DNA from: Sulfurovum sp.
Lineage (GTDB): Bacteria; Campylobacterota; Campylobacteria; Campylobacterales; Sulfurovaceae
Direction: 5' to 3'
Length of the DNA stretch: 32,351 nt
Assembly: GCA_027045015.1 (NCBI GenBank)
Contig: JALUBF010000039.1
Span: 57,681 to 90,031 of the forward strand
The notes below the pieces were generated by a model, which worked only from the letters and a program-made list of their open reading frames with translations, was not told the origin of the DNA and did not search any database. Positions 5,301-32,351 of the stretch are shown piece by piece; positions within the stretch are counted from its first letter, which is position 1; the number at the start of each line of letters is the position of its first letter. Both the position numbers and the translations under genes were made by a program.

Positions 5301-5506
5301 TATTCACTCTCCATATTTTGATTGGATTGTTCTATTATGCTTATCTTTGTTTTTGCATCTTCTATTAGTTTTTGAGCATCTTTGATATTTTTCAATCCAT
5401 CTTCATAAAGCTTTACAGACTCTTCTAATGTTATATCAGGATTCATAAGCTTTTCGAGTAACTCTTTTGAGTTTTTTAACTTCTCTTCAAAAGTATTATT
5501 TTTCAT
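5300..5506 (-). CDS. xseB: Exodeoxyribonuclease VII small subunit
   Basis: Small helical subunit of exonuclease VII, which degrades single-stranded DNA together with XseA. The 68-residue protein has the family core FEEKLKNSKELLEKLMNPDITLEESVKLYEDGLK, with the conserved LEESVKLYEDG segment near 27-37. Its length is typical. The start overlaps the metX stop by 4 bp (ATGA), and its stop overlaps the next ORF by one base, so it is tightly coupled on both sides. The large subunit gene is not in this window. Confidence 0.93.
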   Translation of the reverse strand: MKNNTFEEKLKNSKELLEKLMNPDITLEESVKLYEDGLKNIKDAQKLIEDAKTKISIIEQSNQNMESE

Positions 5507-6597
5507 TTCAATACCTCCTTAATATGCTCTTTAAATTTATCTAACTCAACTAAAAAAGCATCATGTCCATAATCACTATCTACTTCCAGATATGTATGCT
5601 TTTGTCCATTTCTATGCATCATTTTAGCTATATGCTCCATCTCAGATGGAAAAAACAGATAATCAGAAGAGAAACTTATAAGATGCAAATTGGCCTTTAT
5701 ACGACTAATAGCATCATGCAAAGAGTCATATCCACGACTTAGATTAAATGTATTGATTGCTTTTACTATATATAAGTAAGATAAAGGGTCAAATATACGT
5801 GAAAAGTTATTAGTATTGTACTCCATATAACGCTCTACTTCATAACGCCCAAAAAGCTCAAAAAGCCCATCATTATTTACATAATTACGACCAAATTTAT
5901 TATCCATTGAATCTGGAGAAAGATAAGATATATGTCCTGCTATACGCCCAATAGCAAGTCCATCTAAACCATCTTTTCTAAAAGCATCTTTATCATAATT
6001 TCCATTTTTAAAACGTGGGTCTCTACGTATAGCCTCTACTGCTACTTTATTAAAAGCTATAGTCCATGGACGTGTTGCATAAGTAGCTGCCATAGCTATG
6101 ATATCATCTGCAAAATTAGGATAATCAATAGCAAATTGTAGTGCCTGCATACCTCCCATAGAACCACCAACAATAGCTCTAACATGATGTATCCCAAGAT
6201 CTGAAAGTAAATGCATCTGCGCACGAATCATATCTTTAATGGTAACTACAGGAAATTTAAGTCTATAAGGAGCTTGAGTTGTATAGTTGATACTCATAGG
6301 ACCAGTACTACCAAAACAAGAACCAACAACATTAGTAGATATGACAAAAAACTTAGAAGTATCTATAGCCTTACCATCTCCTATAAGTCCGTCCCACCAA
6401 CCAGCTTTACGTTCACCTTCATATACCCCAGCAGCATGATGAGAACCAGAGAGAGCATGACATATTAAGATAACATTTGATTTATCTTCATTTAACTCAC
6501 CATAACTCTCATAGGCTATTTGATAAGGCTCTAAAATACGTCCACTTTCAAGATATAAAGGTGAGCTAAAATGGGCTGTTTTGGTTTCGATTTTCAT
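5503..6597 (-). CDS. metX: Homoserine O-acetyltransferase
   Basis: Acetylates L-homoserine with acetyl-CoA to start methionine synthesis. The product feeds MetY, encoded just upstream. The 364-residue alpha/beta hydrolase has CHALSGSHHAAG at 46-57 (oxyanion region), the nucleophile elbow GGSMGG with Ser146, Asp312 in SSDYLFFPS and His345 in YGHDAF. This completes the triad. Acyl specificity (acetyl or succinyl) cannot be read with certainty; acetyl is assumed from the neighbouring O-acetylhomoserine enzyme. It lies 90 bp downstream of metY, with a hairpin in between. Confidence 0.93.
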   Translation of the reverse strand: MKIETKTAHFSSPLYLESGRILEPYQIAYESYGELNEDKSNVILICHALSGSHHAAGVYEGERKAGWWDGLIGDGKAIDTSKFFVISTNVVGSCFGSTGPMSINYTTQAPYRLKFPVVTIKDMIRAQMHLLSDLGIHHVRAIVGGSMGGMQALQFAIDYPNFADDIIAMAATYATRPWTIAFNKVAVEAIRRDPRFKNGNYDKDAFRKDGLDGLAIGRIAGHISYLSPDSMDNKFGRNYVNNDGLFELFGRYEVERYMEYNTNNFSRIFDPLSYLYIVKAINTFNLSRGYDSLHDAISRIKANLHLISFSSDYLFFPSEMEHIAKMMHRNGQKHTYLEVDSDYGHDAFLVELDKFKEHIKEVLK

Positions 6598-6658: not shown

Positions 6659-6683
6659 TAGGGTGTTATAGTGCTACACCCTA
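6659..6683. terminator. Hairpin between metY and metX
   Basis: TAGGGTGT and ACACCCTA form a perfect 8-bp stem around a 9-nt loop, starting four bases after the metY stop codon. There is no U-tract after it on the minus strand, so it may be a weak terminator, an mRNA-stabilising stem or an attenuator that lowers metX relative to metY. Confidence 0.45.
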
Positions 6684-6687
6684 TATA

Positions 6688-7950
6688 TTATCCTAAAGCC
6701 CTCTTCAAGTCATCAATCAAATCTTGAGTATCTTCCAAACCAACACTAAGACGTATAAGTCCAGCAGGGACACCTGCATCTTCTAACTCTTTATCTGAAA
6801 GTTGTTGATGTGTTGTACTAGCTGGGTGAGTAATGATAGATTTGCTATCACCGATGTTTGTTACAACAGAAAAAATCTCAGTAGCATCAGCTATACTCTG
6901 TGCCTCTTCCTTACTCTCAACCTCAAAAGAGAGTAAACCACTAGCCATACCATTTTTAAAATATTTTTGAGATAATTTATACTGTTTACTTGATTTTAAT
7001 GCTGGATAATTTACCTTTTTTACTTTAGGATGTGACTCCAAAAACTCAGCTATGGCAAGTGCAGAGTCTGAATGTTGTCTCATACGAAGTGGCAAAGTCT
7101 CAAGACCTTGTATGTGTAACCAAGAATTAAATGGACTAGGTGTTCCTCCTAAATCACGAAGTAATGCCAAACGAACTCTCAGAGTAAAAAGAGGCATAGG
7201 CAAATCACTATATATAAGTCCATGATAGCTCTCATCAGGAGTATTAAAGTGTTCATAACGTGCATTACCTTTAATCTTCTCTACCAAGTTCTCACGCTCT
7301 ACAATAATACCTCCAAGTGCAAGACCCTGCCCTGTTGTATATTTGCTAGTACTATGTACTACCAAATCTACACCATAAGAGAGAGGTTTACAAAGTACAG
7401 AAGTTGCTACAGTATTATCTACACAAGTTATAATATTGTATTTTTTAGCTATTTGTACAATCTCTTCTATATCTGCCACATCAATACTAGGATTGGTTAT
7501 GCTCTCAAAAAGTATAATCTTTGTTCTATCATCTACTAAAGCTTCTATCTCACTAGGATTACATACATCAAAATAACGAGTCTCTATACCAAAACGTTTG
7601 ATGGTATGTCCTGTTAATGTAGTAGTTCCACCATAAACTTGCTTTGCCACAATTATGTTATCTCCTGCTTCAGCTACATTGGCAATAGCATAAAAAATAC
7701 CAGCCATTCCCGAAGCAGTCCCTATGGCAGCTACCCCTCCTTCAAGTGAAGCAAAACGCTTCTCAAAAACATCTGTTGTAGGATTCATCAAACGTGTATA
7801 TATATTTCCTAACTCCTTAAGAGCAAAAAGATCAGCTGCATGTTTAGTATCTTTAAACTCATAAGCAGTACTCATATATATAGGAACAGCCATAGTCCCC
7901 ATCGCATCTTTTTCATATCCTGCGTGTATAGCTAATGTTTGTTCGTGCAT
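6688..7950 (-). CDS. metY: O-acetylhomoserine sulfhydrylase (aminocarboxypropyltransferase)
   Basis: PLP enzyme that makes homocysteine from O-acetylhomoserine and sulfide in the cytoplasm. The 420-residue protein is in the Cys/Met metabolism PLP family. It starts EQTLAIHAGYEKDAMGTMAVPIY and has the PLP-contact region GTASGMAG at 77-84, CVDNT at 176-180, and the Schiff-base lysine at 203 in VHSTSKYTTGQG. The sulfhydrylase-length insert before the C-terminal domain (YHGLIYSDLP...) separates it from cystathionine lyases. The gene is preceded by AAGGA. It forms the methionine branch with metX. Confidence 0.94.
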   Translation of the reverse strand: MHEQTLAIHAGYEKDAMGTMAVPIYMSTAYEFKDTKHAADLFALKELGNIYTRLMNPTTDVFEKRFASLEGGVAAIGTASGMAGIFYAIANVAEAGDNIIVAKQVYGGTTTLTGHTIKRFGIETRYFDVCNPSEIEALVDDRTKIILFESITNPSIDVADIEEIVQIAKKYNIITCVDNTVATSVLCKPLSYGVDLVVHSTSKYTTGQGLALGGIIVERENLVEKIKGNARYEHFNTPDESYHGLIYSDLPMPLFTLRVRLALLRDLGGTPSPFNSWLHIQGLETLPLRMRQHSDSALAIAEFLESHPKVKKVNYPALKSSKQYKLSQKYFKNGMASGLLSFEVESKEEAQSIADATEIFSVVTNIGDSKSIITHPASTTHQQLSDKELEDAGVPAGLIRLSVGLEDTQDLIDDLKRALG

Positions 7951-29162: not shown

Positions 29163-29915
29163 ATGTCAAGAAATAAACATGAAGACCGTATAGCACTCTT
29201 TATAGACTGTGATAATATCTCTTATCGTTCTATTGATAGTATCATCAATGAACTCAGTAAATATGGCATTGTAAATATACGCCAAGCCTATGGAAATTGG
29301 ACAAAAGAAAACCTCAAAAATTGGGAAGATAAATTATTGGAATTTGCAATAAAACCAATACAACAATTTGACTATTCTAAAAATAAAAATGCTACTGATA
29401 TACTTATGACCATAGATGCCATAGACCTACTTCATACTAAAGATATAGATGCTTTTGCTTTTGCCACTTCAGATTCAGACTTTACACCAGTAGTAATGCG
29501 TGTACAAGAAGAGGGGATAAAAGTATTTGGTTTTGGCGAAAAGAAGACACCTAAGCCTTTTATGGTTGCTTGTTCACAATTTATATTTACTGAAAAACTC
29601 ATGAGCAATGTTACCAAAGAAAATTCTGAAGAATCAATAGAAAAAACTACACGTAAATCAGGTAAAGAGATGAGACAAGATACTTGGCTTGTAAATGTAC
29701 TTCGCACTGCATTAGAACAGACTATGGACGAATATGGCTGGGCAAATTTAGCAGATATAGGACAATATATAAATAACTCGACATCATTTTCACCTATAAA
29801 CTTTGGCTATAAAAAACTATCTAATCTTATAAATGAAATAGATCTATTTGATATATACGTAGATGAAGATAGCAAAACAATGAGTATAAGAGATAAAAGA
29901 TTAGCACCTATTTAA
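29163..29915 (+). CDS. NYN-domain putative RNase with C-terminal OST-HTH/LOTUS domain
   Basis: NYN domains share the PIN-like nuclease fold and are thought to process RNA; LOTUS/OST-HTH domains bind RNA. The 250 residues start with the NYN motif ALFIDCDNIS (D15, D17). D79 lies in NATDILMTIDAIDLL, and ATSDSDFTPVVMRVQEEG at 101-118 carries D104 and D106. VFGFGEKKTPKPF follows. After an acidic linker, 170-245 matches a LOTUS domain (DEYGWANLADIGQYINN...FGYKKLSNLINEI). It lies 3 bp after rsmD. Its last codon and stop lie inside the first CRISPR repeat. A link to CRISPR function is possible but unproven; similar genes occur without arrays. Confidence 0.87.
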   Translation: MSRNKHEDRIALFIDCDNISYRSIDSIINELSKYGIVNIRQAYGNWTKENLKNWEDKLLEFAIKPIQQFDYSKNKNATDILMTIDAIDLLHTKDIDAFAFATSDSDFTPVVMRVQEEGIKVFGFGEKKTPKPFMVACSQFIFTEKLMSNVTKENSEESIEKTTRKSGKEMRQDTWLVNVLRTALEQTMDEYGWANLADIGQYINNSTSFSPINFGYKKLSNLINEIDLFDIYVDEDSKTMSIRDKRLAPI

Positions 29916-32350
29916 ATACAACAATCTGTATAGGTTCAATTTCTTTTGCTTTTGCAGGTTGAGGAGTTTTCTCACTATTTAAATACAACAATCTGTATAG
30001 GTTCAATTTATTTTTTAAGATAATACTGTGCTTAATGTTATTGATTTAAATACAACAATCTGTATAGGTTCAATACATCATCATTTGAGTTAGGGTTAAA
30101 ATAAAAAAAATTTAAATACAACAATCTGTATAGGTTCAATTTTAAAAAGTGTACAAAATCATCTTGGTCATATTCGATTTAAATACAACAATCTGTATAG
30201 GTTCAATATGTTTATTTGCATATTCCAATATTCCGTGTTTTATTATTTAAATACAACAATCTGTATAGGTTCAATATAAAATGTTTAGTCCTATAGTTCC
30301 AATCCAACCTGATTTAAATACAACAATCTGTATAGGTTCAATTTATCTTAAACCTCATATAGATGTTCCAACCGAAATTTAAATACAACAATCTGTATAG
30401 GTTCAATGAAAGAAAGGTGCTATAGTAGCATCTAAATTGGAATTTAAATACAACAATCTGTATAGGTTCAATATTTTTTGTAAAAAGCGATATTGATATT
30501 ATAACTATATTTAAATACAACAATCTGTATAGGTTCAATCAACTCCTATTTTTTAATCTTTATTCCAGCATCACATTTAAATACAACAATCTGTATAGGT
30601 TCAATACTTGAGCTATAACTTGCAGAGGATGTTGCTCTGATATTTAAATACAACAATCTGTATAGGTTCAATCCATTTTCTCAGGATCTTGTTGAGAAAA
30701 TGACACAATTTAAATACAACAATCTGTATAGGTTCAATTGAGCAGAGAGAAGCTTATGATAATACAAAGATAATTTAAATACAACAATCTGTATAGGTTC
30801 AATGTCGTAACACAACCGTAGGGCGTTAGTTCTCAGGGATTTAAATACAACAATCTGTATAGGTTCAATCCCAATTCAAAATGCAGTTAATAGATTACTT
30901 AAGGAATTTAAATACAACAATCTGTATAGGTTCAATTATATCTCTTTATGGTGTACCAAATATATCCAACTAATTTAAATACAACAATCTGTATAGGTTC
31001 AATAAGTTTCTCATCTTTATTCATAAAGATATAAGCTAATTTAAATACAACAATCTGTATAGGTTCAATTAGACTTTCAAAATTTTATGTAAAAGACAAA
31101 GCAGAATTTAAATACAACAATCTGTATAGGTTCAATAATTAAGCACCACGAGAAAGAAATTTCATTATCAGAATTTAAATACAACAATCTGTATAGGTTC
31201 AATCCGATTATTGCATAAGGTATATACATAGGTTCAAGATTTAAATACAACAATCTGTATAGGTTCAATCGGAATAAAAGGCTCTTTTTAGCTTAGGCTG
31301 TTTTGGATTTAAATACAACAATTTGTATAGGTTCAATCGATTGGTATAACACACCTTTAGGACGTTTAGGTATTTAAATACAACAATTTGTATAGGTTCA
31401 ATAGAAAATTAGAGATGAGAAAAATGTGAAGAAAAAAAATTTAAATACAACAATTTGTATAGGTTCAATTATGTCTAATCTGGAGTTAAATATAACTTGT
31501 TGCTAATTTAAATACAACAATTTGTATAGGTTCAATCTAAAGAAGACCTTAAAAACTTAAAAAATTTTGAATTATTTAAATACAACAATTTGTATAGGTT
31601 CAATGCACCTTCTGATGATAATACTTCTTCTTCTTCTTCTGAATTTAAATACAACAATTTGTATAGGTTCAATTGTTTGTATCGGTTCTTACAGCTATAA
31701 CCTTAGTTAATTTAAATACAACAATTTGTATAGGTTCAATAAGAGGCTCTTGATATACTATTAAAGCTTTTAGGGCAATTTAAATACAACAATTTGTATA
31801 GGTTCAATGTAATCAATGGGAAGGGGAATATTTTAAAGGGTATGTATTTAAATACAACAATTTGTATAGGTTCAATGCCACCTGTAAGAGTGTTTTAGAG
31901 TTTGTTTCAATTACATTTAAATACAACAATTTGTATAGGTTCAATTCTAAAGATTACTTTGGTTTAGGCTTTAAAAATGATAGATTTAAATACAACAATT
32001 TGTATAGGTTCAATATTTTCAGTAAAAAGCAAGAAAGCCCATATCTTCTAATTTAAATACAACAATTTGTATAGGTTCAATCAGATAAAAAAGGTTTAAG
32101 GAAAATACTATGACGATTTAAATACAACAATTTGTATAGGTTCAATTAGGTCGTTCTAAGGGACGCGATTGGTATAATACACCCAATTTAAATACAACAA
32201 TTTGTATAGGTTCAATGCACGGAATATTGGAATATGCAAATAAATGCAAACTATTTAAATACAACAATTTGTATAGGTTCAATTATCTCAAGCTTGGAGT
32301 TAAATGTAACCTGTTGCTAATTTAAATACAACAATTTGTATAGGTTCAAT
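29910..32350 (-). CRISPR. CRISPR array, at least 37 repeats, continues past the right edge
   Basis: Thirty-seven repeats of 31 bp (plus strand: begins ATTTAAATACAACAA, ends TGTATAGGTTCAAT), with 36 complete spacers of 34-39 bp; the 37th spacer starts at 32351. Repeats 1-21 (29910-31269) have C at position 17, and repeats 22-37 (31307-32350) have T; otherwise all are identical. Positions 7-12 and 17-22 can form a stem. Strand is inferred. The left end has no room for a leader because repeat 1 includes the stop codon of the NYN gene. The minus-strand repeat ATTGAACC...GTATTTAAAT resembles clostridial type I-B repeats, whose 5' handle is the last 8 bases (here ATTTAAAT). So leader and cas genes are expected to the right. 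No cas gene is in the window, so the type is not proven; type III sharing of such repeats is also possible. Confidence 0.98.
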
Positions 32351-32351
32351 G

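Follow-up and report, generated by a model that had tools for sequence, protein, structure and literature searches.

Spacers 5 and 35 of a long CRISPR array in Sulfurovum sp. share a 27-nt core in opposite orientations, and we regard it as likely that they are separate memories of one site, taken at different times and on opposite strands from two elements that were related without being identical, the site being the HGILEYANK block of a plasmid-type serine recombinase gene. Both spacers lie near the end of the 32,351-nt stretch analysed here (the window; Table 1); the array itself runs on beyond it, where positions are given for the locus L012.

The inverted match and its flanks

A repeat search returned one perfect inverted pair between spacers 5 and 35 (100% identity over 27 nt), confirming the exact reverse complement reported by the first-pass annotation. 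Among the 101 unique spacers of the array this is the longest opposite-strand match, the runner-up being 13 nt; given the base composition of these spacers, ∼5 × 10⁻¹⁰ opposite-strand exact matches of ≥27 nt would be expected. The sequence for searching the shared site is CACGGAATATTGGAATATGCAAATAAA. In register, the overlap of the spacers comes to 31 nt: the 27 core bases are the same in both, and the other four all differ. The reverse complement of spacer 5 is AATAAAA-core-CAT, against G-core-TGCAAACT for spacer 35. The earlier statement that no base had changed is therefore true inside the core only. Since the four comparable flanking bases differ, the donors were not identical at this site, and the proposal that the same mobile element was met twice is not supported; the donors were relatives instead. 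Two acquisitions, one from each strand of a single target site, remain supported by the reverse-complement overlap, the independent flanks and the uniformly oriented repeats.

Table 1. Positions in the window of the array, the paired spacers and the neighbouring re-sampled spacers.
Feature	Position	Strand	Description
CRISPR array, repeats 1–37 of at least 106	29910..32350	(-)	31-nt repeat ATTTAAATACAACAAT[C/T]TGTATAGGTTCAAT
Spacer 5 (37 nt)	30208..30244	(-)	crRNA orientation AATAAAACACGGAATATTGGAATATGCAAATAAACAT, reads IKHGILEYANKH; sense strand of recombinase-like frame
27-nt core in spacer 5	30211..30237	(-)	nine codons, HGILEYANK
Spacer 22	31338..31371	(-)	DWYNTPLGRLG; overlaps the 34/101 site
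Spacer 24	31470..31505	(-)	MSNLELNITCC; relatives in the same register are spacers 36 and 104
Spacer 34	32147..32185	(-)	GRSKGRDWYNTP; relative of spacers 22 and 101
Spacer 35 (36 nt)	32217..32252	(-)	crRNA antisense to frame ?HGILEYANKCK
27-nt core in spacer 35	32218..32244	(+)	exact reverse complement of the spacer 5 core
Spacer 36	32284..32319	(-)	ISSLELNVTCC; latter half of the tandemly duplicated 35-36 unit; shares strand and register with its relatives, spacers 24 and 104

Were one and the same element to have been met twice, with both its strands sampled, the flank differences would have to be later mutations in the array or the element. The unchanged core would agree with this, but random mutation would not spare 27 of 27 core bases yet alter four of four flanking ones, and the edges of the match coincide with variable codons of the recombinase described below; such a history seems to us quite improbable.

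The pair might also have been produced by rearrangement of the array, either as one spacer being an inverted copy of the other (the inversion that the first-pass annotation had set against its own reading) or by capture of spacer 35 out of its own CRISPR locus. Rearrangement does occur in this array: just past the window, spacers 35 and 36 recur as a tandemly repeated unit (window 32217–32351, L012:2866–3360), in at least two copies and in the order 35-36-[100 N]-35(partial)-36-35-36-41, such that spacer 35 is met again beyond the window in one complete copy and in another truncated by an assembly gap. This 100-N scaffold gap starts directly after the window end, within the duplication, and sits where an assembler struggles to cross a tandem repeat. 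However, all the repeats point in one direction; spacer 35 continues as TGCAAACT, whereas an inverted copy of the locus would give CAT and then the repeat; and spacers 4 and 6, the neighbours of spacer 5, have no inverted match in common with spacers 34 and 36. The differing flanks on either side, together with the uniform direction of the repeats and the absence of inverted copies among the neighbours, exclude inversion and capture from the array, and the chance that a rearrangement lies behind the pair is close to nil.

Coding content of the shared core

Read from its first base, the core makes up nine whole codons, HGILEYANK, in a frame that is open in both spacers. A degenerate scan for this peptide in any codon spelling, run over ∼85,000 species genomes, gave only two matches (∼0.35 expected by chance, by hand calculation). 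Each lies in frame in a small serine recombinase (MANYAYLRVSTDQQDV[D/N]NQRHGILEYANK...), at a position common to the two; one is carried by an 8-kb contig of a gammaproteobacterial MAG, the other by the Thiothrix plasmid pTfr12. The matched recombinase has a Pfam Resolvase domain and corresponds to PHROG 125; its family is common on plasmids and bears the motif NQ[R/K]HGILEYAN. Across 11 plasmid-type relatives there is hardly any variation in HGILEYAN; H is preceded by R or K, and N is followed by variable residues. In front of the H, spacer 5 has the codon AAA (K) and spacer 35 has xxG; behind the K of the core, spacer 5 has CAT (H) and spacer 35 has TGC (C). The two spacers thus diverge exactly at the poorly conserved codons on either side of the HGILEYAN motif. 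The flanking residues agree with the family in the K/R before H and in the variable residues after ANK, but disagree in the I that spacer 5 has two residues before H, a position at which all the relatives carry Q. Given this I-for-Q difference, the donors probably belonged to a somewhat diverged branch of the family. We infer that the donor gene would encode a plasmid-type serine recombinase and that the donors would be plasmid-like.

The first-pass annotation had offered two explanations for the match, namely one element met twice over a long interval or a hot spot with suitable motifs on both strands. As the core is a conserved coding motif, neither an unchanged element nor a special two-strand hot spot is required.

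A different origin would be a non-coding module, such as a recombination or attachment site, shared by otherwise unrelated elements, with the HGILEYANK reading being accidental. It would suit the abrupt end of the identity on both sides, the absence of synonymous drift within it and the I of spacer 5 where the relatives have Q, but not the frame that is open in both spacers, the coincidence of the match edges with codon edges, or the placing of both database matches in frame at a homologous site of a single protein family; we therefore hold it to be unlikely.

In the host family, relatives of the recombinase (33–42% identity) were without the motif, and the 397 genomes of the phylum, a set without a positive control, contained no close relative of the recombinase (E ≤ 1 × 10⁻⁴⁵). 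No protospacer of spacer 5 or 35 was found in IMG/VR, the phage set, the plasmid set or 175 genomes of the family. In IMG/VR there was likewise no match to an exact 24-mer of the core, to KGRDWYNTP, to GVPISQWDSH or to the patterns of spacers 7/83/92, and no confirmed relative of the recombinase was returned by a recombinase query; a single match to degenerate GILEYANK was out of frame and was rejected as due to chance. The whole array gave weak E-values only against the phage and plasmid collections, and the spacers had no match at ≤8 mismatches in loci L013–L021, which include recombinase-bearing elements.

Orientation of the array and re-sampled sites

The array extends beyond the window up to position 94736 of contig C39 of the genome assembly, with at least 106 repeats in all, and the repeat direction is uniform throughout. 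Since cas2 ends ∼195 bp from the last repeat, the leader most likely lies on the right, between the array and cas2, with the array transcribed leftward; spacer 1 in the numbering of the first-pass annotation would then be the oldest. Position 17 of the repeat is C in repeats 1–21 (window 29910–31269) and T in repeats 22–106 (31307–32350, on to L012:7736), a lone C-to-T switch that fits growth of the array from one end and provides a time mark within it. If the leader adjoins cas2, spacer 5, in the trailer-end half, is the older of the two and spacer 35 is younger by position.

Repeated sampling of a site from diverged relatives is seen in some eight further groups of spacers (L012:590–7736), among them 7/83/92, 8/81, 24/36/104, 22/34/101, 41/70 and 42/72/90. 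In nearly all of them the strand is unchanged and in most the register too, and synonymous changes are present: spacers 8 and 81 differ by six synonymous and no non-synonymous changes in 10 codons, spacers 41 and 70 by seven and none in 12 codons, and the re-sampled pairs other than 5/35 have 1–7 synonymous changes per 10–12 codons. Spacer 35 itself lies between members of two such groups (spacers 34 and 36). These groups indicate that the host repeatedly met diverging members of at least one element family. Compared with the other re-sampled pairs, the nine codons of spacers 5 and 35 are somewhat unusual in having no synonymous change, from which it follows that in this stretch the two donors have a recent ancestor in common, although their sequences part immediately next to it. 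The simplest reason for the 27 unchanged bases is such recent common descent, or else recombination within the block.

Apart from the low-complexity GA-rich spacers 42, 72, 86 and 90, the array has no clear opposite-strand pair other than 5/35. Those low-complexity spacers (L012:3459–3493, 5464–5498, 6407–6442 and 6675–6708) are recurring GA/CT-rich sequences that partly pair with one another. Spacer 71 (L012:5398–5432), which reads EALANKYNLST, has an 11-nt stretch in common with spacer 35 on the same strand; it is possibly a more distant relative of that spacer, or the likeness is due to chance. The neighbouring spacers 49 and 50 (L012:3925–4028) overlap by 14 nt and can be joined into a 20-aa peptide with a weak match to ParB/RepB/Spo0J partition proteins (E-values of 0.09 and 0.27), which hints weakly at plasmid-like targets.

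Cas proteins bind the mature crRNAs of type I systems. The idea that the crRNAs of spacers 5 and 35 could pair with each other stands as a physical possibility, their duplex as naked RNA (–40.6 kcal/mol) being the strongest of all spacer pairs (mean –8.1, s.d. 3.4), but nothing indicates that such pairing occurs. It is very unlikely that the complementary crRNAs pair and modulate each other, or that the 27-nt block is a short cassette, moving between diverged elements or kept identical in them by recombination or as a recombination site, that was caught in two contexts.

Strand choice in a type I-B system

On the minus strand beyond the array lie cas6, a 555-aa gene at the cas8b position, cas7 (Cst2/DevR), cas5, cas3, cas4, cas1 and cas2, an operon of type I-B. 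When compared with NCBIfam models, the products of cas4, cas1, cas2 and cas6 all exceeded the curated cut-offs, the best model for Cas1 being the type I-B Cas1b (391 bits); the Cas3 core (283 bits), its HD domain (70 bits) and Cas7 Cst2/DevR (143 bits) also passed. The top model for Cas5, Cas5t, scored 78 bits, below its cut-off of 96.7, while the general Cas5 model passed. The 555-aa gene (L012:13616–15283, minus strand) matched no NCBIfam model.

In type I systems the PAM orients the prespacer and sets which strand becomes crRNA. Returning to two captures from related elements, the target would be a conserved block, HGILEYANK, close to the N-terminal end of the recombinase gene, an AT-rich site that presumably has a usable short PAM at either side, with the two registers ∼6 nt apart. 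Spacer 5 would then have been captured in the sense and spacer 35 in the antisense direction, the 27 nt being identical as a conserved nine-codon block and the match ending where the protein conservation ends. We infer that this PAM geometry accounts for the opposite strands, and both crRNAs would be expected to guide Cascade-Cas3 to such elements. Read by hand from the alignments of overlapping spacers, the candidate PAMs were TCA, CCA and CCT, but also CTT, CTA and AAA; the first three would be compatible with the YCN of the Clostridioides difficile I-B system (PMC8406132) while the others do not fit.

An inverted spacer overlap can thus be decoded without a protospacer: the codon reading of the shared block led to a likely target gene, and also showed the donors to be relatives rather than one element. 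With its ∼8 groups, the array records in order how a diverging element family was sampled again and again, and is useful for studying the rate of protospacer drift and how strictly acquisition keeps to the same register.

Compared with known systems, the locus shares with type I-B CRISPR-Cas of the Cas7/Cst2-DevR, Cas5t and Cas1b variety the gene families and order cas6-cas7-cas5-cas3-cas4-cas1-cas2 adjoining the array. It differs in its putative large subunit (555 aa), for which there is no NCBIfam match; the tandem duplication of the 35-36 unit and the array length (at least 106 repeats) are variations of no particular note. Serine recombinases of plasmids ('recombinase family protein', PF00239; e.g. 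those of the Thiothrix plasmids pTfr12 and pTfr21) have NQ[R/K]HGILEYAN in frame with the shared core, although the spacer DNA differs from theirs at synonymous sites and the invariant Q is replaced by I in spacer 5. Strand-independent acquisition has been documented for type I-F (PMC4117759), and acquisition from both strands for type I-B, transposase genes being a both-strand source in Haloferax volcanii (PMC7521656); there, as here, spacers came from either strand of the same target. In contrast to those cases, the captures in this array would be from two alleles at different times rather than within one experiment. The pair is what type I-B adaptation ordinarily produces, a repeat immunisation against a recurring and diverging class of element.
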